A stretch of 61,679 nt of DNA from a bacterium (GTDB taxonomy: Bacteria; Armatimonadota; UBA5829). Shown piece after piece: positions 47,126 through 61,679 of the stretch; position 1 is the first letter of the stretch; every line of letters starts with the position of its first letter. The DNA is taken from assembly GCA_021373255.1 (NCBI GenBank), contig JAJFTD010000021.1, positions 1 through 61,679 of the forward strand, read 5' to 3'. Under the pieces are notes generated by a model. The model was not told the DNA's origin and made no database searches. It was given only the letters and a program-made list of their open reading frames with translations. The translations under genes were made by a program, and so were the position numbers.

Positions 47126-47155
47126 TTGACACGCTCAGATCGTGTCTGCTATACT
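47126..47155 (+). promoter_or_regulatory. tRNA-Glu promoter
   Basis: Perfect TTGACA (47126-47131), an 18-base spacer and TATACT (47150-47155). The tRNA starts 12 bases after the -10 box. Confidence 0.85.
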
Positions 47156-48919
47156 ATACTTGCTGTGGCCCCGTCGTCTAGCGGTCCAGGACATCGCCCT
47201 CTCACGGCGGAGATCGAGGGTTCGAATCCCTTCGGGGCTACCAACCGACTGACCAAATTGAGAGTCCATTCCCAATTGCGGGAGTGGACTTTTGATTTTT
47301 ACGAGGATCTCTTTCTTGTCTGGGTGCACAGTTATACCTCTAAGGAACTGCTGAAGAACCATTTTCTTCTGCATGTTGTCCGTGCATTCCAGTCTTTCTC
47401 TTAATTCGCGTGCCTGCTTATGAAGATCCTCAGCAAGAATTCTCTTGGGGATTTGCACGCTACCTAGTTCCTCCAGACGCTGCTTCTTAGCGGATAGTTC
47501 TGATACGGACTTGGAGACTTCATTCGCCGGTAGCCCTTCAGCGACAGCTGTCATCAGCCGCTCGATCTTCACGTTTATTGTCTCTATCGCCTTTATGCGC
47601 TGTCTTTCAGTTTCCTGATATCGTCCACGTTGCTCATTAACCCAGTTGTTGTAGTGCTTTACCGACTCGCCCAGCTTAGCGCCGTCCTCCGGCAGCACAT
47701 CCTCAAGCACACCGAAGATTGCCGCTTCCAAATCATCTTTTCGAACGTGCCAGCACGTAGAACAGCCCTCTCCGCGGCGATAAAGATAGCTGCCGCAGAG
47801 GTAGTAGTCTATGCCTCGTTTAGTTCTCCCTGCCAGCGGTGAGCCACAGCTACTGCAAACCATGATCCCGCCAGAGAGCAAGTAGCGTCCAGGAGTACTT
47901 CCTTTGTTCACGACGACCTGCGTTCGATTCTTGCCAAGAGCATAGATTGCATCCGCCTCTTCCACCGAAATGATAGCCGGATGAGCATTCTCAACAACCT
48001 TCCACTCGTCGAGATCCCTCTGACGCTTGCCACCATTCTGGAAGCTGCGACGATTGTAGAAACCATAGCCTGCGTACTGGAGCAGTTTGTCCTTTTGAAG
48101 AAGATAATAGACGCTGCTCGCTGACCATGGGCCACCACGTCGTGGTGATGGTATTCCGGCTGCTGTGAGTGCACCGGCTATGGCATCAATGCCCATGCCT
48201 TGCCCAAGGCGCCAATCAATAAGCATTGTTCGTGCCCACTCCCAGATCGCGTGGCCGTTGATGATCTCTTCATCCAAGAGCCATATACAATGGCTAATTC
48301 TCTGATATTTTCGGTCTACGTCGGCATAGATTCGTTCATTGCGGTAACCAAACTGCGCCATGCCGCCATTCTTATAAGCATAGCCAGTATTCTGATCTCT
48401 ACATGTGCAGTTCTCCAGTAGGCTCTTATGAATCAGTTGCGATAGCTCCATACTGCGAACCTGATTCATTGCCTCGCCGATGCTGTCGAAGATAACGCCC
48501 TCTCGTGTGTCGGGGTCATAAGGTTCAGTGACCGAAAGTACCTTTACTCCACACTTTGCTAATTCGCCCTTGGAAGCCGCCGCAGTATATTTGTTACGGG
48601 AGAACCTATCAGACTTCCAGACAAGCACGAGTGATATGGAAGCATCGCGTTTTGCCCTTGCAAGCATATTCTTGAAGCCGATCCTCTTGTGTTCGTCTTT
48701 GTATGCGGAGACGCCAAGATCCTCAAACCACTCAACGATCTCAATGCCTTTGTGCTCCGCGAACCTGGCAATCTCGCGCCGCTGCACAGCTATGCTCGCC
48801 CCCCGCTCTGCACTATCTTCATGGCTGACTCTCACATAAGCCACAGCATATTGAGTGCGAGATTCGAGAGCGCGTTTGTTCTTCGGCATATTTGTGAGAT
48901 CATCAAGTATTTGGCTCAA
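47135..48919 (-). CDS. Large serine recombinase (integrase) whose 3' end runs antisense through tRNA-Glu
   Basis: A 594-residue site-specific recombinase. The resolvase domain has the catalytic serine S32 in YVRVSHEDS and SDRFSRN. A recombinase DNA-binding domain (SPRRGGPWSASSVYYLL), a zinc ribbon (CSSCGSPLAG...YYLCGS...GCSTC) and a coiled coil follow. The start is TTG at 48919, with GAGGAGG six bases upstream. Residues about 559-584 (GSPEGIRTLDLRRERAMSW...) are encoded by the complement of the tRNA-Glu gene. The stop lies in the tRNA promoter, so the integrated state determines this end of the protein. It is the likely integrase of the island. Confidence 0.92.
   Translation of the reverse strand: MSQILDDLTNMPKNKRALESRTQYAVAYVRVSHEDSAERGASIAVQRREIARFAEHKGIEIVEWFEDLGVSAYKDEHKRIGFKNMLARAKRDASISLVLVWKSDRFSRNKYTAAASKGELAKCGVKVLSVTEPYDPDTREGVIFDSIGEAMNQVRSMELSQLIHKSLLENCTCRDQNTGYAYKNGGMAQFGYRNERIYADVDRKYQRISHCIWLLDEEIINGHAIWEWARTMLIDWRLGQGMGIDAIAGALTAAGIPSPRRGGPWSASSVYYLLQKDKLLQYAGYGFYNRRSFQNGGKRQRDLDEWKVVENAHPAIISVEEADAIYALGKNRTQVVVNKGSTPGRYLLSGGIMVCSSCGSPLAGRTKRGIDYYLCGSYLYRRGEGCSTCWHVRKDDLEAAIFGVLEDVLPEDGAKLGESVKHYNNWVNEQRGRYQETERQRIKAIETINVKIERLMTAVAEGLPANEVSKSVSELSAKKQRLEELGSVQIPKRILAEDLHKQARELRERLECTDNMQKKMVLQQFLRGITVHPDKKEILVKIKSPLPQLGMDSQFGQSVGSPEGIRTLDLRRERAMSWTARRRGHSKYSIADTI
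47167..47243 (+). tRNA. tRNA-Glu (anticodon CTC)
   Basis: A full cloverleaf with acceptor GGCCCCG/CGGGGCT (G1-U72), an anticodon loop CTCTCAC giving CTC, the T loop TTCGAAT, and an encoded CCA at 47241-47243. It is the likely attachment site of the island: its 3' part is the last host sequence before the recombinase gene. Confidence 0.96.
47263..47300 (+). terminator. Intrinsic terminator for tRNA-Glu inside the recombinase gene
   Basis: AGTCCATTCCC (47263-47273) pairs with GGGAGTGGACT (47280-47290, one G-T pair) around a 6-base loop, then TTTTGATTTTT. It ends transcription 20-55 bases after the tRNA and lies antisense within the recombinase coding sequence. Confidence 0.75.
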
Positions 48920-49354: not shown

Positions 49355-49648
49355 TGCTTTTTCTCCTCGCGTGAAAGAATCAGCGCTGATAGTTCACAAA
49401 TTTGGTGCTAATAGGAACTTCAAATGCGCTCAAAATCTTAAGCGCGATTTTTTGCGTCGCATGAGCGATTAGGCTGGTCGCGAGGAAAAATGCCGCTAGC
49501 TGCCCAACTGCAGTATAGAAGAATGCGAGAAGTGAAAAAGGCATTTCATTGTCACAGCCACAGATGTTTCAAGCTGTTTGTAATGAGACCGACTACGCAG
49601 CTATCTACTGTATGAGTAGATCGTCACAATTACCAGAGGTGTATATAG
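49355..49648. other. Gene-free interval upstream of the recombinase operon
   Basis: Apart from the ribosome binding site of the leader ORF at 49363-49368, the only feature I see is the perfect palindrome ATCAGCGCTGAT at 49379-49390. It is shared with 57466-57477, upstream of the second recombinase gene. No clear promoter hexamers were found. Confidence 0.5.
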
Positions 49649-50005
49649 AACTTTGCAGAGGTTGTTTCTATAGTTCTCACCAAGCCAGGTCATACTGGTG
49701 CCACGTATGAATTATGCGGGCCTGAGAATCTGTCTCTGGCCGATATGCTGGCCGCTTTCAAGCAGCTTTTTGGGCGTGAAGTCAAAGTTCAAAAAATCCC
49801 AGATGAGCTCCGTGCAGCGCAACTAAGGAAGCACGGGCCAAGAGATTATCAAGTCGAGACACTATCAACGATGTTCCATCACTACAATGAATATTAGTTT
49901 AATGGTAACCTAAATGTCTTGACGTGGATACTGGGCAGAAGACCAGAGGATTTTGCATCTTTTATTCATAGGACGATGCAAGAAAAAGGGCAATCTCAGC
50001 ATTAG
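49649..50005 (+). pseudogene. Decayed NmrA-type NAD(P)-binding oxidoreductase fragment
   Basis: Conceptual translation gives FAEVVSIVLTKPGHTGATYELCG, then ENLSLADMLAAFKQLFG, MFHHYNEY, a stop (TAG at 49895), then in the same frame NVLTWILGRRPEDFASFIHRTMQ. This matches the C-terminal third of NmrA/SDR-like oxidoreductases. The N-terminal two thirds are absent and an in-frame stop interrupts the rest. It shows the region has gained and lost cargo. Confidence 0.8.
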
Positions 50006-50152: not shown

Positions 50153-53100
50153 CTAAATAAACAGCCGGTAGTCGTAAGACACAGACCCAAAGCGTTCCAG
50201 AAGAGTACCAATGCGAGCAATGGCATTGGATGACTTGATTGTCGCTGGCATCTTCGTATAAAGATCAAACGAGTTCCAATCCATCTTGGACAATCCGAGT
50301 ATCTCAGTAGCTAATGTGCCGAAATCAGAGGCTCCGTAATGCCGGGTCACGACAAGCGGAGCCGGAATCCGGCTCTTGCCTTGATAATAGCTTGGTTTCC
50401 TTGGATTGACTTCAGGCCTTGCTGTTCCGTGAACCCAGAGTAATGCCTTGTGATCGTCTAAGACTAGCGCCGCTCCTCTTCTGATTGGAAACGCATCACC
50501 GAAAAGCTTCCCGGATTCGATATGGCATGCTGTGTACCTAAGAGCGGGGTCACGGGTTATTTCCAGCATGTCCACAGTCCTGACACCAGACAAGCCGTCA
50601 AGTAGTCCCTCCTGTTCGTCCTTGGTGAACGGAGTTCGCTTGTGCATAACGACTCGATCCGGCAAACGCTGCATAGATTCGTAGCATAACTGACGGATAC
50701 TCTCTCCTACACGACGGGAATCATCGCGCGACATAAAGGGGTTGTCGCCACGAATGATTGGGTTTTCGATCTTACTGAGATTGTACCGTAGGCCAAGTCC
50801 CCCTGTGTTGTAGATGTGGCTGCACCCAAGAACGATGTGATTGCCAGTCTTACTTGCCTGGTCAATACTAAAACCTAGCCCTGCAAATGCTGTTTCGGGA
50901 CCCAATGATTCCAAAACCCAGGGAGTGCGCATCGATTTAACATAGAAAGACAGCGCAAGCCACCAAATGATCTCGCATTGATACTGCTTGGACAGGGTAG
51001 CTTCTTTTAAGAACTGAGTCGTGATGCCCTCTTGGACGCAGGCAGCTTTGATGTGGTCATGCAAATCCTGAGTTACACCATCGACATTGCAGCGTTCTAG
51101 CTGAAACCACCGCCTGGGGATATAGACAAGTACAACACTTGGATGGCTTGACGCACGAAGCGCCCTGATACAGGAAATGAGATTGCGAGCAAGCTCGACA
51201 GCACTTTCCGAAACGTCGTTGCTCTTACTGGGCTCTGGAGACGCGATCCAGCCATTGTCGTTTGGCTGCGCAACTTCGAGCGGAAGTCCAAACGCAGCAT
51301 CAAAACCAGGATAGTCCAGCAGGTATTCCTCCTTGCTGTCTGGTTGCTTCTTCATGTAGAGGCTGTTAAGGAATCTCGACAACTTTGCTGAATCGGCAGC
51401 AGGACAAACCACCCCTACCCGAATACTGGTCGAAAAGCCCTTTTTTGTCAGTGCGTAGTCGTAAGGCTGGTTTTGCACAATGCCTCTCATAGGATGCTTA
51501 TCACCCACATAACCGTTTCCTCCAGTATTGGAGAATATCAGCTTTGGTTCATCGAAGCATTGTCCATTAAGAGATATGAGCTTCTTCATCGGCTGAGGTA
51601 CGGCTAGAGAGCGTCTGCCATTGGGAACGCAAAGGCCAGCCAATGCCGAAACCGATGAGATAGTAAATCTAAATGTGGAACCGCAATTCGGAGGAGCTTC
51701 AAACATTACAGTTTGATTCTTTCTCTCCTCTTTAGGCATTATGCGATTGCGCCACTGATTTACCGCCTCATAGAACTGTTGGTTGTACTGATATGTGAGG
51801 ATGCTTCGCTTCAATTCTTGATCTATGTCATCCGGCAATTCGTTGCCGTCTTCAGTCGTGCCTCTGATGGTTGGCAATATAGTCAAATACTGCTTGTCCT
51901 TGTGCCGCCGCAGATGAAGCGAAGCTGCAGTGCAGACTTTACATCTGATGCCGTTGACAACCTTGGTATACGACGATTCATCGGTCCACAGTAGGCTTTT
52001 CCCATCAATTTGAAAACCACGCTTTGCTGCAATCGCTCTTGTAAGAGCCTGCGTCATCAATGAAACCACAGCACTCTTTTCATTAGCAAGCTCCTCAACA
52101 CCAATGGGACTTCGCGTAATGTCGCCGACAATCTGTTTACCAAAGGCAGCCTTCACATCGTCTACCGTGCCTATTGCCAATGTATTTCCTTTCAATGGAA
52201 CTGCAATAACATTTGTTCCTTCAGTTCTTCGGCGCAACGCTCTCCAAGCACCCGGCTGGCAAGACTCAAGCGTTCTAAACTGCAGCACCTCCGAAGGACA
52301 TTCTACAGGGAATGCGTTGCTTAGCATCAGATCAGTAACTGCCGAGTTGGATATGCTGAACGGCAAGGTCTTGACAGGCTGAACAGTTTCTGCACTAATG
52401 ATCTTACGAGCAGTGTCAAGATTGTCGTCCGCAAGGCAGTGTAAGGCGATCCGCACGAGAAGATCATCGAACCCAGATGTACAAGAGTAAAACGCATCCC
52501 TGTTGTGCGCTTTGGCTGTTGCGAGCAATGCGCGAACCGAATCAGACGGTTCAGATTCCCCATAGCCACACCAGTATAGCCTGCCGGTTCCAGGCTGCGA
52601 GTAAGCTTCAGCAAGCGATTCCATCACAGAAGCATCATTACCGCTGTAACCTGCCACAATCAAATTAGCATCCTGTAGGTTTTGAGTCAGCTTCTTCCTT
52701 AGTTCCTCATCCTGCTGCTTTATCTCTTTATCAGTATTCTTTAGAAGATCATAGCGGTAGTCACCGTGAATCGCCACGCAAAGCAATTCTCCTTGAACCG
52801 GCTGCCTATATGCCCTATCAGTACAATCAAGCCCGACCTCAATAACAGTAAGCCCAGAGGAAGCTCCGGTTCTTCCGACAAGCCCATCAAAGTTAGTCGT
52901 CCAGACTTCAGTGACCAACCCGGCACTTGCCAAGAGGCACAGGAGCTTATAGCCTATGCGAGGTTGGGCTTCCTTAGCCAATTGAGAGAAATATCGCCTT
53001 CGATCTTGCGGAATTGGAAAGCAGTATTCCGCATAGAAGCCATATTCCCCGGATGATCCAAGTTCCGGGAACTTGCATTCCTTGTCTAGCCACCGCTGTA

Positions 53101-53335
53101 TCCTATCGCGGACGCTCTCCAGACTAAGCTCGCTGAACTGATCTTCAAGCCCAGGGTTATTCGTCAGAAATACTCTTCGTTTCCACTCCCAGATACACAT
53201 TTGCGCAGAGCGAACACCGGAACTGATCGACGATCCAGCACCTAAGAAGAAGACAAACGGCGTACCGCGATTGACACCTATCGAACGCACAAGGGCATCT
53301 AGAGGTAATGCTGACTCACAGTTGTCTTCTTGCAT
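50153..53335 (-). CDS. Single-chain SIR2-APAZ-Argonaute defence protein
   Basis: 1060 residues. The N-terminal SIR2 domain has GAGSS (32-36), TTNFDG (N148, D150), H190 in IHGDY and GYSGND (229-234). A middle region (about 320-600) has the size and place of an APAZ domain, and the C-terminal half is MID-PIWI-like (VVLVYIPRRW, ending DWNSFDLYTKMP...IARIGTLLERF). PIWI nuclease positions look lost: GLGFS at about 819-823 and MHKRTPF at about 897-903 lack the aspartates. By analogy with SPARSA-type short Argonautes, guide-directed recognition would trigger NAD+ depletion and growth arrest. Usually these are two proteins; here they are one. ATG 53335 has AGGT upstream. Confidence 0.88.
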   Translation of the reverse strand: MQEDNCESALPLDALVRSIGVNRGTPFVFFLGAGSSISSGVRSAQMCIWEWKRRVFLTNNPGLEDQFSELSLESVRDRIQRWLDKECKFPELGSSGEYGFYAEYCFPIPQDRRRYFSQLAKEAQPRIGYKLLCLLASAGLVTEVWTTNFDGLVGRTGASSGLTVIEVGLDCTDRAYRQPVQGELLCVAIHGDYRYDLLKNTDKEIKQQDEELRKKLTQNLQDANLIVAGYSGNDASVMESLAEAYSQPGTGRLYWCGYGESEPSDSVRALLATAKAHNRDAFYSCTSGFDDLLVRIALHCLADDNLDTARKIISAETVQPVKTLPFSISNSAVTDLMLSNAFPVECPSEVLQFRTLESCQPGAWRALRRRTEGTNVIAVPLKGNTLAIGTVDDVKAAFGKQIVGDITRSPIGVEELANEKSAVVSLMTQALTRAIAAKRGFQIDGKSLLWTDESSYTKVVNGIRCKVCTAASLHLRRHKDKQYLTILPTIRGTTEDGNELPDDIDQELKRSILTYQYNQQFYEAVNQWRNRIMPKEERKNQTVMFEAPPNCGSTFRFTISSVSALAGLCVPNGRRSLAVPQPMKKLISLNGQCFDEPKLIFSNTGGNGYVGDKHPMRGIVQNQPYDYALTKKGFSTSIRVGVVCPAADSAKLSRFLNSLYMKKQPDSKEEYLLDYPGFDAAFGLPLEVAQPNDNGWIASPEPSKSNDVSESAVELARNLISCIRALRASSHPSVVLVYIPRRWFQLERCNVDGVTQDLHDHIKAACVQEGITTQFLKEATLSKQYQCEIIWWLALSFYVKSMRTPWVLESLGPETAFAGLGFSIDQASKTGNHIVLGCSHIYNTGGLGLRYNLSKIENPIIRGDNPFMSRDDSRRVGESIRQLCYESMQRLPDRVVMHKRTPFTKDEQEGLLDGLSGVRTVDMLEITRDPALRYTACHIESGKLFGDAFPIRRGAALVLDDHKALLWVHGTARPEVNPRKPSYYQGKSRIPAPLVVTRHYGASDFGTLATEILGLSKMDWNSFDLYTKMPATIKSSNAIARIGTLLERFGSVSYDYRLFI

Positions 53336-53491: not shown

Positions 53492-53854
53492 TCAACCCCT
53501 TGGCTGTGACTTGATGTATCGGACTGATGCCTGCAACTGGTCTAACACATACTCCAGATCATCCTTCTTCAGGGACTCCAGCAACCATGCGATTTCCTGC
53601 GCCTTATTCAGCCACGTATAGCCCGTTCCAACAGCCATCAATTCAAAAGGCTGTGCTCCAAGCGCCTTAGCAATAGATATCAACGCAGGAAGTGACGGCG
53701 TATTACTTCCGATCTCCAGTCGGGCTATGTAGTTGGGACTTAGTCCGGCCCGTTCTGCCAGTTGTTCCTGGGTGATACCTATAGCTTTACGTCGAACTCG
53801 TATGTGCTCAGCCAGTACATTCAACAATTCATTGAGTTCTGCTTGTTTTCTCAT
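53492..53854 (-). CDS. XRE-family DNA-binding regulator next to the SIR2-Argonaute gene
   Basis: A 120-residue protein with one helix-turn-helix (RKAIGITQEQLAERAGLSPN, then YIARLEIGSNTPS) and a helical C-terminal half. It is the first gene upstream of SIR2-Argonaute on the same strand, 156 bp away, so it may control that system or the island. The ATG at 53854 lacks a ribosome binding site and overlaps a possible -10 (TATCAT), with TTGACA 16 bases before, so the true start could lie a few codons later. Confidence 0.85.
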   Translation of the reverse strand: MRKQAELNELLNVLAEHIRVRRKAIGITQEQLAERAGLSPNYIARLEIGSNTPSLPALISIAKALGAQPFELMAVGTGYTWLNKAQEIAWLLESLKKDDLEYVLDQLQASVRYIKSQPRG

Positions 53855-54112: not shown

Positions 54113-54442
54113 ATGAATACAAATGGTTCAGCCGGTTGGTTCCTTATTATACCAATAGGTGCAATTCTAGCTTTTATGGGTTTTGGTTCACATCCGGGTG
54201 GGACAACAGCAGACGAGCCGGAAGAAAAAGTTGTCACGATTGGTGAATACAACCAGGTCAGGACAGGAATGACTACAGGTGAAGTCGAGTCCATTGTCGG
54301 CAGCAGCGGCGAGGAAGCTGCAAGTGGTGGAGACTGCGAGAATCACTGCCGAATTGTATCTTGGCAGAACTCTGACGGTTCAAATATGATCGTCACATTT
54401 CAGAATGGTGCTGTAAGCGATAAAGCTCAAAGCGGGCTTTAG
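54113..54442 (+). CDS. Small membrane-anchored DUF3862-like protein
   Basis: A 109-residue protein with one N-terminal membrane segment (residues 7-25) and an outside domain YNQVRTGMTTGEVESIVGSSGEE...SDGSNMIVTFQNGAVSDKAQSGL. This fits the DUF3862/SmpA-like fold pattern of small envelope proteins. GAGGAGG is six bases before the ATG. Its role on the island is unknown. Confidence 0.75.
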   Translation: MNTNGSAGWFLIIPIGAILAFMGFGSHPGGTTADEPEEKVVTIGEYNQVRTGMTTGEVESIVGSSGEEAASGGDCENHCRIVSWQNSDGSNMIVTFQNGAVSDKAQSGL

Positions 54443-54656: not shown

Positions 54657-54728
54657 TAGACCCGACAGCCTCAGTCTGGTCACATTGCCAGAGGGATATT
54701 CCCGAGAATACGACAAATGGAAGGAGCA

Positions 54729-57122
54729 ATGCGTGATGTGGAGACTATAGCTTCCACAGCTTCTTGTGTCAACAATTGGCTAACATGTGGCAATATTGTA
54801 ATATGGGAGTTTGTCTATTTCCCAGACTTTGCTGCATGGGGTTGTCGTGAATTGAGATCAGTCAAAGATGATGACGTTACGCTTGAGACTTTGCTTCAGG
54901 AATTTCTGGGTGAACTGGAGCTTCCGTATACTCTGTCCGGCGCCACCATATATCCAAGCTGGAAGATGCCACTGTTGTTTCATCAGGTGGCTGGCCGATT
55001 CCTGGAAAGGCAAAAAAGCCAGTTTGCCCCACGTAAGAACGAAGTCGAAGTGCGTTTGAGTGCTCTTTCTTTGGAACCTGCAGAATTGGATCGGGCGCGG
55101 CGTATCGTTGGACGAATCTATGGGTGCATGGGCAAGCCCGCAATTTATTATCTTGATGGAGAGCCGCAGCCATATACATACCAATGGTGGCCGATCCTCC
55201 ATTGCCTTGACCTGGAACAAGCCATCCAGTATCTGGGAGTTAAAAAGGCTCTTACGCTATTCGAAAATACATCATTGCCAGAACTGGCAGTACGTGCGTC
55301 TTTCTTCGCGTTTCTGCACTGCGGCAATACTCCTCTTTATACCTTGGATGAATTGGCAGATCTGCTTGATCAGTTTGCAGATTATCTCACGAGTAACCGT
55401 AACGCCGTCCTTGAGACTGGTTACCCGGGCTGCAGCTTTGCTCAGTCATTCTGGCTTGGTAATCAGTTGGGTCGTCTCTACTTTGCTGCGTTCCCTAATC
55501 TTGTTATTACTCCACTAGAAAACCCAGCAAATCAAAGCTATCTGTTTCTTGAGGAATCAGAAGAGCAACGAGACGAGGCTCCCGAGGATGCGGTCCCAAT
55601 CTTTGGTGCAAATTACAAAGGCGCTGTTAGGAAAGGCGACTTCATATATCTGCCTCAATGGAAGTATTTTCCTGATCTCGATGAACAAGGCAATATGCTG
55701 CAATGTAAGGGCTGGATTACATATCATGAGAGAAAGCTAGATAACACAACTCACACACTGATTTTGGAGCCAGAACAATTTGAGCACCTGGTTACCCTGC
55801 GTGAAAAGGTGCTCTCAGCAAAACAATGTGTGCTGCAACTTCTTGCCGCAGCACTTCGAAAAAGAGATGCAAACAATCTGCTAGACAGATGCCTTGATGT
55901 TATGTCAGAGAAAATCACTGCAGATGAAATGGAATTCCTGTTTTCAATAGATCGCTTGTTCTCCTTATACAGCTTTGATAGATGCTATGGAAGCTACGAT
56001 GCTAACACACTGCCAGCGGGAGGCGTGAGTGACATTCTGACGCTGGTAGGTCATTGCCAGAAAGAGATCGAAATCGGTACGTATGCGGCAATATGCGAAG
56101 AGATGCGTGGTCTGCTCAGTCCTAACCTAGCCTATCCCAGGCTCCTTGCAGGCAACTATTATGAGATCATTGAGAAAGAAGCTACCGAAGAGTTAGAGAA
56201 AGCATATGGAATTATTCAATCGAATTATCACGATGAGCTCAGATTCTGGGACAACTACATAGGTCAAGTGAATGACATTGTCGCCGAAGAGTTTATGGAG
56301 AGAGTCGTAATCGAGCAACTCGTTAAGAGAAAGCATGTCAACAGCTTCATACCTAAGGCAAAACAAGTTACAGACTACATCAGAGCGAGTATGGAACTGA
56401 CAGGCGACACTCCGCATATATCGACTTCGCTAGACGCAGTTAGTTCTGCTCCTCATGCAAAGGAATGCGACTGCATATTTCAGCAGCACGGCGACATGTG
56501 GACGGTAAGATTTAGCGGCGACACAAAACTTGTAAGAGACCTCGACGGTATGCACTATATAAAGTTACTTCTGGAATCACCAGGGAATGAATTCCGAGCA
56601 GACCAGCTGTATTATCTGGTCCATCCGGTGGAATTCAAACAAGACAACAGCCCAAATAAGTTGAGTATGGATGAACTGATCAGTGAATATCAAGTGCTTC
56701 AAAGTATAGGTACACAGATCTCTGATCCAGAAGATTATAAGGAGTTCAAGTTTGTTTCGGATAAGCGCCAGCTCTGCAAGGAGGAATTGCTCGATGCCAT
56801 TGAAGCTGGGGATCAGAAAGCTGCAGCAGCGCTCCGCGAGAAAGTAAGAGCTTTGGACGACTTTATTACTTCGCATTATGATCACAAAGGCCGATCACGT
56901 ACAGTATCGGATCCATTGAAGAATCAGCGCCAGACAGTTAGCAAATCAATAGTCCTTGCATTGAAGAAGATGAAGAAGATCCATCCTAGCTTGGCGGATC
57001 ACTTAAGGTCAATCAAGACAGGAACATACTGCTCATACGATGGCGGCTTGGACTGGCAAACCGACGATGCGCCCCATGCAGATCAACTCCGAGGTAATAT
57101 CCACAACAAGCAATGCGCGTAA
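54729..57122 (+). CDS. 797-residue protein with a regulator-type C-terminal module; function unknown
   Basis: The first about 570 residues match nothing I know and have no ATPase, nuclease or membrane signature. Residues about 585-635 (WTVRFSGDTKLVRDLDGMHYIKLLLESPGNEFRADQLYYL) and the tail (LREKVRALDDFI...VSKSIVLALKKMKKIHPSLADHLRSIKTGTYCSYDG) match a C-terminal module common in large ATPase/LuxR-type regulators. AAGGAG immediately precedes ATG 54729; ATG 54717 and GTG 54738 are alternatives. It lies on the island between the SIR2-Argonaute block and the second recombinase. Confidence 0.7.
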   Translation: MRDVETIASTASCVNNWLTCGNIVIWEFVYFPDFAAWGCRELRSVKDDDVTLETLLQEFLGELELPYTLSGATIYPSWKMPLLFHQVAGRFLERQKSQFAPRKNEVEVRLSALSLEPAELDRARRIVGRIYGCMGKPAIYYLDGEPQPYTYQWWPILHCLDLEQAIQYLGVKKALTLFENTSLPELAVRASFFAFLHCGNTPLYTLDELADLLDQFADYLTSNRNAVLETGYPGCSFAQSFWLGNQLGRLYFAAFPNLVITPLENPANQSYLFLEESEEQRDEAPEDAVPIFGANYKGAVRKGDFIYLPQWKYFPDLDEQGNMLQCKGWITYHERKLDNTTHTLILEPEQFEHLVTLREKVLSAKQCVLQLLAAALRKRDANNLLDRCLDVMSEKITADEMEFLFSIDRLFSLYSFDRCYGSYDANTLPAGGVSDILTLVGHCQKEIEIGTYAAICEEMRGLLSPNLAYPRLLAGNYYEIIEKEATEELEKAYGIIQSNYHDELRFWDNYIGQVNDIVAEEFMERVVIEQLVKRKHVNSFIPKAKQVTDYIRASMELTGDTPHISTSLDAVSSAPHAKECDCIFQQHGDMWTVRFSGDTKLVRDLDGMHYIKLLLESPGNEFRADQLYYLVHPVEFKQDNSPNKLSMDELISEYQVLQSIGTQISDPEDYKEFKFVSDKRQLCKEELLDAIEAGDQKAAAALREKVRALDDFITSHYDHKGRSRTVSDPLKNQRQTVSKSIVLALKKMKKIHPSLADHLRSIKTGTYCSYDGGLDWQTDDAPHADQLRGNIHNKQCA

Positions 57123-57503: not shown

Positions 57504-57698
57504 ATGAGTAATCTCCCAGATCCGGATGAAGTGCACCAGCTAAAGCGTAGCGAGGCACCTCAAAGACTGGATCAAACAAGTCCTGAAATTCAGCAGCGAC
57601 TGAGAACTGCAGCCCGGATTCTTGCAAACGGTGCGATAAGGGCTGCGGCAAAAAAGGCACAGACTGGCGACCTGGGCTGCAGCAGTGGTTCGAGCTAA
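57504..57698 (+). CDS. Small helical protein preceding a recombinase gene
   Basis: A 64-residue protein with a central alanine-rich helix (SPEIQQRLRTAARILANGAI). AAAGGAGGAG lies eight bases before the ATG, one of the best ribosome binding sites in the window. It is 127 bp upstream of the second recombinase homologue. It weakly resembles the 51-residue ORF at 59994 in its helical segment. Function unknown. Confidence 0.6.
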   Translation: MSNLPDPDEVHQLKRSEAPQRLDQTSPEIQQRLRTAARILANGAIRAAAKKAQTGDLGCSSGSS

Positions 57699-57825
57699 TC
57701 AGGTTCTATCACTGAGCCAGCCAAGACAGGCGCACCAACCAAAACTGCAGTCCACTTTGCACCGCGGGCTGCACGAATTATCAGCAGCAATGATCACATT
57801 GCTACTATATCACAGGAGGAAAGAA

Positions 57826-58752
57826 ATGATATACGAGATTGACATCAAAAACGAAGAAGATGCTCATCTGCATCAAGACATACTAGCAACAAGAGATGGT
57901 CTGCAGCATGTAGCAGGCTACATACGAACAGCATGTGTCTGCCAGGAAGATGAATCCTCAGTAGAAATGCAGCGTCAGGTGATCCGAGATTTCTGCATGC
58001 AAAGGTTTCCGGAAGGTTGTCGCTTATTCTGGATCTCAGATATCCCAGCCTCTGGCACGCTTCCATGGAAACGCGATGGCCTAAAATCAGGAGAATACCG
58101 CGAAGGCCTAACTGTTCTTGTAGATCTTGTGAAACGGGGACTGGTCTGGTACGTTTGCACTTCCCGCATCGATCGACTCGCAAGATCGGCCAAGCTGCTC
58201 ATCGAGTTTGTGGACGAATGCATCAAACCGCTTGGCATCAGCTTGTATTCCGTAACTGAGATGGCTGCGCTTGAACGCAGCAACGATCTACTGCCTACGA
58301 CACTTCTCGCATTGGAACAACATCGTCTTGCCTCAGGTGAGGTTCGTATTATCGATGGCCCGCCATCGAGACTTGACCAGGGTTATATCGTAGGACGACC
58401 ACCTTACGGATGGGCATGGGAAGATGCGGGATCAATTCCGCATGCGCGCCGCGTCGGTATTCAGCCCAGAGTAAAAAATGCTGCGGTAGTTCGCAGGATT
58501 GTTGAGGCGTTCATTGCAGGTGGCACTGTTTCCCAGATAGCCCAGCAACTCACTTCAGATAATGTGCCAACCCCCGGCGGCGCGCAAAGGTGGTCACCAA
58601 AAATGATTAGGAGGGTCCTCTGCTGCCCCGTCCATTACGGCCTTATCCACTCGGCTGATGGGACTTTAGTTCGCGGTGCGCATTTCGATAGGCGTCTGTT
58701 TAACGAGTCAGTTTATGATCAGATCACGAAGATATTCCGCCGGAGAGGCTGA
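57826..58752 (+). CDS. Serine-recombinase homologue lacking the catalytic serine
   Basis: A 308-residue protein with a resolvase-like domain and a recombinase DNA-binding domain (GYIVGRPPYGWAWE, VVRRIVEAFIAGGTVSQIAQQL, PGGAQRWSPKMIRRVL), but no zinc ribbon. The active-site strand reads YIRTA with alanine A36 where recombinases have serine, while R34, R117 and R120 (DRLAR) are kept. Strand exchange should therefore be impossible alone. ATG 57826 follows AGGAGG by six bases. It may bind att sites as a regulator, or work with a partner. Confidence 0.85.
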   Translation: MIYEIDIKNEEDAHLHQDILATRDGLQHVAGYIRTACVCQEDESSVEMQRQVIRDFCMQRFPEGCRLFWISDIPASGTLPWKRDGLKSGEYREGLTVLVDLVKRGLVWYVCTSRIDRLARSAKLLIEFVDECIKPLGISLYSVTEMAALERSNDLLPTTLLALEQHRLASGEVRIIDGPPSRLDQGYIVGRPPYGWAWEDAGSIPHARRVGIQPRVKNAAVVRRIVEAFIAGGTVSQIAQQLTSDNVPTPGGAQRWSPKMIRRVLCCPVHYGLIHSADGTLVRGAHFDRRLFNESVYDQITKIFRRRG

Positions 58753-59036
58753 CATTCAGAGGTGCGCGCAGGCTATGGTATCTATTGTCGCCCGTGCAGA
58801 AACAGTATCTGAGATACGACTGGTATTTAATGCGGCATAGATACATCTCTCCTCATCAAATACCAGGAGTTTGGATGAGCGATGTTACCTGCAGTTGTAG
58901 AGACAGGACGGGTCGCAGCTACTAGTTGCGATGCACATTCCAGACTCTGGAGTTGCAATCGTTATCAGCCGCAGGATTGCCAATGACCCAGTGAAACAAA
59001 TTCTCAAAACGCACAAACTATAAATGGAGGAAGAGT

Positions 59037-59567
59037 ATGATCATCATTCATCAAACCAAACATCACAATCTCAAAGGTCACGAGGAGGATCTTAAGTTTC
59101 CCGATGGCCTGCCTATTGCTGTAGGCTATGTCCGAACATCGAGCACCGATGATGTGGGCCGTTGCAGCGCCCATTCTCAGGTTCAGGGAATCGTATACAC
59201 TTGCGACGCGAAATTTCCAGAAGGATGTCACCTGGTCTTGGTCTATGATTTAGGAACCTCGGGATATACCTGGACACCAAAGGGCGATGACAACCGACAC
59301 AGGACGATGTCCAGCGGGCTTAAGATGGTTGCGGAATTGCTGGAGCAGGGCATTGCCAAGCACGTATTCGTGCGCGATATCAGCCGTATCAGCCATTCAC
59401 CTTTCGCGATAATCGAATTCTCGAGTATCCTAGACCATGCGAAGGCCTGCGTGGTATCTACTTATGAGGGAGAGTTTGTTCCTGCTAGTCTTGCAGCTGC
59501 TGCCAGCACAGAGTGTGTGCTGGCAGCCCTAGGATTGCTTGCACAGATGACCCTCGAGCAATCCTAG
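59037..59567 (+). CDS. Stand-alone resolvase catalytic domain
   Basis: A 176-residue protein comprising only the serine-recombinase catalytic domain. The catalytic serine is present (S35 in YVRTSS), as is R117, but the second arginine of the DRLAR motif is histidine (H120 in SRISH). It has no DNA-binding domain. It shares the FPEGC...SG stretch with the 308-residue homologue, so the two are related. GGAGGAAG precedes the ATG. It is not truncated by a frameshift; the stop is followed by an 11-bp hairpin. Confidence 0.8.
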   Translation: MIIIHQTKHHNLKGHEEDLKFPDGLPIAVGYVRTSSTDDVGRCSAHSQVQGIVYTCDAKFPEGCHLVLVYDLGTSGYTWTPKGDDNRHRTMSSGLKMVAELLEQGIAKHVFVRDISRISHSPFAIIEFSSILDHAKACVVSTYEGEFVPASLAAAASTECVLAALGLLAQMTLEQS

Positions 59568-60490: not shown

Positions 60491-61679
60491 TCAATAGTTG
60501 TATGATGCTTGGATCTGGAGCGTCCTGCCTTCCTGCGGAATCTTATCCATCCTGATTCTGGAAGATCCGGGCACATATACGGTCTTGTTGAGCAGATTGT
60601 GTATTCTGAGCGAGAGGCCTAACCCTTTGCTATCTTTGGTTTTCATTGTGAGATTGCAGACCAAAGCCGACCCGGTCTCATTACCGGCGAGTGTTTTTTC
60701 TGATCCGACAAGCTGTAAATCGGGTGAGATGATATACTTCTTTGCCATTGGCAATGATAGCCCGGCCGTGACAAGATAGTTCGGTGAATTGCTGATATGT
60801 TCATCGGTGGCTGCGTCACGTGTACGCAGTAGCGAGAAGCCCAGGTAGCCATCGATCCCGTCCATCACTCTCGACTCCAGTTGTGTCTCGATTCCATCGC
60901 TGGTGACTCCCGCCGAATTAACATATTGAATGTTGCCGTCTATATCTGTTGCCTGAGTGATGACCTGATCCAGGTCATAATGGAAAATACTTGTGACGAG
61001 GCGGCTGTGAGTTCCCAGTGCGCGCTCTAGCACGAACTCGGTAGTGGCAATCTCTTCCGGGTCCAGATTGTAGCCTTCGTTCAGGCATGGAGCCCTGAAT
61101 GCCTGACCATAAAGCATTTTCATCGTAGTAGATTGAGAAGCGTTATAGATGAAGGCGAACCTTGGGCTTAGATTGGTTCCGAATGCAGACGCTTTGTCGA
61201 GCCTGAGTCCGACAACCATTCGCAATGGATCGGCTATGGTCAGGTCAGCCTGGGTATAGCACGATTTCATATCGGTGCTGTCAGTTGAGTTCGCATACTC
61301 CTGGTAATATGGCGCGGCATCATGATCTTCTTGCCGCATTCTGGAATGGGTATACTCCAGGCCGGACGTAAGCGATAACCTGGGATTTATATCCACGCTA
61401 TAACGAGTCTCAATTCCGAACCAATTCATGTTCGCATAATCAAACTCCGTAACAAGTGTGGGGTACCCGTAATCATAAATGTAGTTACCGTGGTAAATGT
61501 ATCGGTTGTTGTAGAGTTGCACAGTGAGCAGGTCATTGCGCTTAGCTGAACACTTAGTCTCATAGCACAGGCTCATGACCGATCTGTAGTCATCCGTCCA
61601 AACGCCGGGCTGGTTGAATTCTGTGTCGTAAATAGCGGTCGGTATATCTTTACGCCGGTCTCCGGCGTTAAAAAGCATC
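60491..61679 (-). CDS. TonB-dependent receptor, C-terminal part (cut by window edge)
   Basis: At least 395 residues of an outer-membrane beta barrel. Alternating strands such as LRMVVGLRLDKAS, LSPRFAFIYNAS, KMLYGQAFRAPCLNEGY, SLRIHNLLNKTVYVPG and the terminal strand LQIQASYNY are typical of TonB-dependent receptors. The FRAPCLNE stretch is a family hallmark. The plug domain and signal peptide would lie beyond 61679. It probably imports a siderophore, cobalamin or glycan with TonB, and shows the cell has an outer membrane. Confidence 0.88.
   Translation of the reverse strand, partial: MLFNAGDRRKDIPTAIYDTEFNQPGVWTDDYRSVMSLCYETKCSAKRNDLLTVQLYNNRYIYHGNYIYDYGYPTLVTEFDYANMNWFGIETRYSVDINPRLSLTSGLEYTHSRMRQEDHDAAPYYQEYANSTDSTDMKSCYTQADLTIADPLRMVVGLRLDKASAFGTNLSPRFAFIYNASQSTTMKMLYGQAFRAPCLNEGYNLDPEEIATTEFVLERALGTHSRLVTSIFHYDLDQVITQATDIDGNIQYVNSAGVTSDGIETQLESRVMDGIDGYLGFSLLRTRDAATDEHISNSPNYLVTAGLSLPMAKKYIISPDLQLVGSEKTLAGNETGSALVCNLTMKTKDSKGLGLSLRIHNLLNKTVYVPGSSRIRMDKIPQEGRTLQIQASYNY

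Follow-up and report, generated by a model that had tools for sequence, protein, structure and literature searches.

A divergent single-chain SIR2-APAZ-Argonaute of the S1A type on a candidate mobile island in an Armatimonadota genome

The short pAgos closest to the protein described here are those of the S1A type, which are SIR2-APAZ-pAgo fusions by definition (PMC12205087; PMC11156904). They are represented by PADLOC model PDLC02384 and by APAZ group Ia of Ryazansky et al. (2018), whose single branch of APAZ-bearing short pAgos has 106 members, 102 of them also carrying SIR2 (PMC6299218). The solved counterpart is SPARSA (S1B), exemplified by the Geobacter GsSir2/Ago system (PDB 8in8, 8jkz, 8y80), in which SIR2-APAZ and pAgo are encoded by separate genes of one operon. 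In SPARTA and SPARDA the short pAgo is accompanied by TIR-APAZ and nuclease-APAZ, respectively. A first-pass annotation of the present locus held that fused forms are known from surveys, and this agrees with the S1A group and its full-length PADLOC model. At least one fused Sir2-Ago was reportedly included in the work of Zaremba et al. in 2022.

The gene considered here (P0001) lies in a window of 61,679 nucleotides, the whole stretch of DNA that was analysed, and its position is given with those of the surrounding features in Table 1. Its reading frame is uninterrupted from ATG to stop over 1060 codons, whereas 200 shufflings of these bases gave no open frame longer than 228 codons. PDLC02384, the PADLOC model for fused pAgos, spans residues 8-1060 with 1298 bits. 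Pfam SIR2_2 matches residues 143-263 at 37.7 bits, above its cut-off of 24.5, and Pfam Piwi gives a weak match of 16.4 bits, below its cut-off of 28.9. In sequence searches the protein matches both chains of the SPARSA complex 8in8, first Sir2-APAZ at residues 27-406 (E 2e-26) and then Ago at residues 596-1059 (E 1.5e-47).

An AlphaFold2 model built from 46 single-chain sequences has a mean pLDDT of 86 and a pTM of 0.83, and its top PDB matches are SPARSA Ago and SPARSA Sir2-APAZ. In the predicted structure, residues 584-1060 align to SPARSA Ago 8y7z_B over 447 residues (Z 40.5, rmsd 2.3) and residues 7-566 to SPARSA Sir2-APAZ 8jl0_A (Z 28). The structural search against SPARSA, proposed when the locus was first annotated, places a MID-PIWI fold in the last 450 residues. 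The initial description of SIR2 and Argonaute halves in one 1060-residue chain is borne out by the intact frame, the PADLOC model, the 8in8 matches, the predicted structure and the phylogeny given below. Another kind of SIR2 defence protein (DSR2-, ThsA- or SIR2-HerA-like), resembling Argonaute by chance, might be suspected from the sub-threshold Piwi score and from the SIR2 domain, which alone matches many phage-carried SIR2 proteins. Such an identity has a close to negligible probability given the match of the C-terminal half to SPARSA Ago, at the E value above and with Z 40 across some 450 residues, and is refuted by the MID-PIWI fold. SPARTA and SPARDA also share this fold with the fused protein (Z about 30-38), but their effectors are TIR and a nuclease, respectively, rather than SIR2.

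There is no PAZ domain, as the best alignments assign the chain to SIR2-APAZ and then to MID-PIWI and leave no room for PAZ. From residue 325 onward there is also an alignment of the model to complete Argonautes, SIWI and Piwi among them. This alignment leads to a reading of the model in which the APAZ and MID-PIWI parts together are a PAZ-less Argonaute preceded by a SIR2 domain.

Table 1. Positions in the window of the fused gene, its domains and key residues, and the neighbouring features
Feature	Position	Strand	Evidence
Fused SIR2-APAZ-MID-PIWI gene (P0001, 1060 aa)	50153..53335	-	ORF; PADLOC PDLC02384; 8in8 chains B and C
SIR2 NADase domain, about residues 12-316	52388..53302	-	Pfam SIR2_2; structure match 8jl0_A
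APAZ (N-L1-L2-like) region, about residues 325-566	51638..52363	-	Structure alignment to SPARSA Sir2-APAZ and whole Argonautes
MID-PIWI Argonaute half, residues 584-1060	50156..51586	-	Z 40.5 to 8y7z_B
N148, catalytic Asn (GsSir2 N142)	52892..52894	-	Asn in 98/98 relatives
H190, catalytic His (GsSir2 H186)	52766..52768	-	His in 98/98 relatives
N233, codon AAT (GsSir2 R229 equivalent)	52637..52639	-	Arg in 96/98 relatives
Guide 5'-phosphate pocket H759, K763, Q774 (GsAgo H166, K170, Q181)	51014..51061	-	Invariant in 98/98 relatives
XRE/Cro-type HTH regulator, 120 aa, 156 bp upstream of the fused gene	53492..53854	-	Pfam HTH_3 4.9e-15
Large serine recombinase, 594 aa ORF	47135..48919	-	Pfam Resolvase, Recombinase and Zn ribbon
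tRNA-Glu(ctc), candidate left end of element	47167..47243	+	ARAGORN
Second, shorter serine recombinase, 355 aa	57685..58752	+	Pfam Resolvase and part of Recombinase; PHROG integrase

The fused SIR2-APAZ-Argonaute form is not rare and is common in many phyla, since just the 80 best of 412 candidate relatives in one genome-contig scan, together with one scan of viral contigs, already gave 86 intact single-chain genes (1038-1173 aa). One more fused locus (L099) is frameshifted; two distant relatives from a subsequent scan bring the single-chain genes to at least 88 besides the one described here. A scan of viral contigs with the present protein alone as query returned no relatives, but alignment-based scans did find some. 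The single-chain relatives come from about 15 phyla, with 15 named ones represented in the tree, including Bacteroidota, Pseudomonadota, Acidobacteriota, Planctomycetota, Nitrospirota and Gemmatimonadota. Best-segment identity of the protein to any relative found is at most about 51%. The gene is present as a single copy in its own genome, and a search of 291 genomes from its phylum gave no other full-length match. Horizontal transfer is therefore the probable origin of the gene.

In a tree of the Argonaute half, all 87 fused proteins fall on one side of a branch that separates them from ten two-gene systems (support 100), and the split persists at a support of 99 once the two distant fused relatives are added (89 rows). 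The protein lies inside the fused side, where it clusters (98) with sequences of Rhodothermota, Actinomycetota, Gemmatimonadota and Verrucomicrobiota. A phylogeny of the PIWI part, likewise proposed at first annotation, therefore joins it to the fused short-Argonaute clade. The relatives in the tree were collected by similarity. Branching details within that clade are unsure because the tree was made by a quick search under a simple model and long branches meet. The protein resembles S1A members in domain order, length, inactive PIWI site, retained NADase and 5'-phosphate residues and position in the tree, and is a further member of this already catalogued type.

Residue conservation was counted over 98 relatives, comprising 88 single-chain and ten two-gene systems. 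Ala mutants of GsSir2 at N142, H186, F143, D144, Y226 and F287 lose all NADase activity (PMC10781750). The equivalents of all six are present in the fused protein as N148, H190, F149, D150, Y230 and F289. D150 and F289, like N148, H190 and the guide-pocket residues H759, K763 and Q774, differ in at most one of the 98 relatives, and F149 and Y230 are kept in nearly all. The motifs originally listed for the SIR2 domain (GAGSS, N148/D150 and H190) are all there as stated, with the catalytic Asn and His unsubstituted. GYSGND, listed alongside them, is indeed present as a string but is not standard. The family carries GYSGRD, and the protein departs from most of its S1A relatives in having Asn rather than Arg at residue 233.

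Arg occupies this position in 86 of the 88 single-chain and all ten two-gene relatives. The exceptions are two distant single-chain relatives, L187 with Asn and L177 with Ser, and the idea that N233 is unique to the present protein was rejected once these turned up. The Arg of GYSGRD is usual, not defining, for the group. In the solved complex the side chain of its GsSir2 equivalent, R229, touches the NAD+ pyrophosphate, and R229 is not among the mutants listed in the passage on these contacts, where the pyrophosphate contacts S227 and S38 are described as mutated without loss of activity (PMC10781750). A single sequencing error at codon 233 is unlikely, as AAT is two changes away from any Arg codon.

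The change at residue 233 raises a second reading, in which the protein is an S1A member with weakened or lost NADase activity, N233 having removed the pyrophosphate contact, and is now either a decaying copy or an effector-less guide-directed DNA binder. This would be in keeping with the prevalence of Arg and the pyrophosphate contact of R229, with a codon that is hard to explain by one sequencing error, and with some decay of the element suggested by degenerate remnants of recombinase and oxidoreductase genes nearby. It is nonetheless quite improbable, as the reading frame is open over all 1060 codons, the six Ala-sensitive positions are all intact, GsSir2 tolerates mutation of S227 and S38 without loss, and L187 and L177 also lack the Arg. 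With two distant relatives varying at this position and other pyrophosphate-contact mutants active, N233 should not by default be read as a loss of function.

In the Argonaute half, H759, K763 and Q774 correspond to H166/K170/Q181, the 5'-phosphate pocket of GsAgo (PMC10781750). The second of these is printed as K70 in the source; K170 was taken from the alignment of the fused protein to 8in8. GsAgo N184, R190 and N195, which make base-specific contacts to the guide, correspond to K777, K783 and E788, positions that vary within the fused clade. As these contacts are not kept, the 5'-AU guide preference cannot be transferred to the fused protein. In the PIWI domain, motif alignment puts G821 at the position of the first Asp and K899 at that of the RDG Asp, the latter being Lys in all 98 relatives. 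The catalytic tetrad (DEDX) thus appears to be lost, as was already suspected at first annotation.

Compared with SPARSA, the protein has the same domains, order, fold and catalytic and guide-pocket residues, but it is one chain, has other residues at the three guide contacts and shares about 24% identity. It may be that the single-chain clade, and this protein especially, is functionally unlike two-gene SPARSA, with K777, K783 and E788 conferring another guide 5' preference and N233 changing the handling of NAD+ (rate, activation threshold or substrate). Such a divergence in function is considered rather unlikely.

Very probably, the gene encodes a single-chain S1A short pAgo that recognises invader DNA with a guide RNA, depletes NAD+ and brings about abortive infection. 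The chemistry of its guide and target, the hydrolysis of NAD+, target-triggered activation and the role in abortive infection are all modelled on characterised SPARSA. The MID domain would hold a 5'-phosphorylated small RNA guide, which would pair with single-stranded invader DNA in the PAZ-less Argonaute channel formed by APAZ and MID-PIWI. The paired DNA would be left uncut, since the catalytic residues of PIWI appear to be missing. PIWI would instead sense the duplex and relay this to the covalently attached SIR2 domain, with target-driven activation probably involving oligomerisation. Activated SIR2 would then hydrolyse NAD+, and the infected or plasmid-invaded cell would die or stop growing, protecting the population.

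The XRE gene upstream had been pointed out initially as a neighbour of the fusion. Its location stands, but it is not a conserved neighbour, as a comparable HTH protein occurs at only seven of the 86 fused loci, in varied positions; the query was one XRE sequence, with which distant HTH families would be missed. A toxin-antitoxin-like pair, with the XRE protein as an essential partner of the fusion and not an ordinary regulator, might be read from the shared strand, the short spacing and a promoter-like site at the XRE gene start (TTGACA-16-TATCAT, 11/12), and DNA-binding proteins are found in about a third of the operons of this group (PMC6299218). With the strands and distances of the seven similar HTH genes varied and the largest neighbour family confined to 12 loci, this pairing is very improbable. 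On these counts the XRE gene is possibly a local regulator at most.

A search for a conserved partner gene across the 86 fused loci found none, and the largest neighbour family (12/86) is restriction-related. Other fused loci adjoin type I restriction genes, serine recombinases, helicases and conjugative-transposon genes, named by eye from their sequences, and these neighbours are consistent with defence cargo. In L081, L082, L083, L084 and L086, an ORF of one family stops where the fused gene begins or runs into it; this ORF is helicase-like and 863-884 aa long in four loci and 349 aa in L081. These loci are a possible coupled sub-lineage. On viral contig IMGVR_UViG_2841319695_000005 (L178, L182) the fused gene appears split at about residue 485, with some 11 kb between its two parts, as though another element had inserted.

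The region was first annotated as an integrative island, which is plausible. In its favour, the 3' end of the large serine recombinase ORF runs through the tRNA-Glu gene, and G+C is 0.45-0.50 over 46.5-57 kb compared with about 0.52 elsewhere. However, no flanking att repeat was found, nor was a second copy of the tRNA-Glu 3' end (a tRNA-derived attR) in the window or the genome, and no tRNA lies within 20 kb of the start of the adjoining contig. An empty site, sought via the P-type ATPase and TonB receptor genes in four congeneric genomes, was likewise not found: there was no matching neighbourhood, and the flanking genes were too diverged. At 57685-59567 there are two partial serine recombinase genes, with an 18-nt inverted match to integrase sequence past the first stop, and these are probably decayed copies.

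Several further features were noted in the window and next to it. Broken fragments at 49400-50000 (+) resemble, by eye, the C-terminal part of an NmrA/SDR-type oxidoreductase. A small protein at 54113-54442 has a weak BLIP/BamE-like match just below the Pfam cut-off and a PHROG match at 4e-9. An 801-aa protein at 54717-57122 (+) has no Pfam, NCBIfam, PHROG or PADLOC match; its homologues elsewhere are fragments only. Part of its C-terminal region recurs on actinobacterial plasmids and in three genomes from the same class, and another part of it is matched on contig C96 of the same genome. Contig C128 (locus L165) begins with the same 141 bases that end the window (61539-61679); the two contigs are therefore probably adjacent, with the TonB receptor gene at 60491 continuing into C128. 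A prepilin-type protein at 17548-18309 of L165 has the N-terminus GFTLIELLVVIAIIAILAAILFPVFA, a style of prepilin N-terminus that may point to Armatimonadota as the host phylum.

The protein leaves the picture of the field unchanged, being a divergent addition to a widespread clade that is biochemically little described in the open-access literature. The change at residue 233 and the altered guide contacts are its sole unusual points. Through these it flags two testable contrasts with solved SPARSA, namely the contacts to the guide 5' end and the Arg of GYSGRD.
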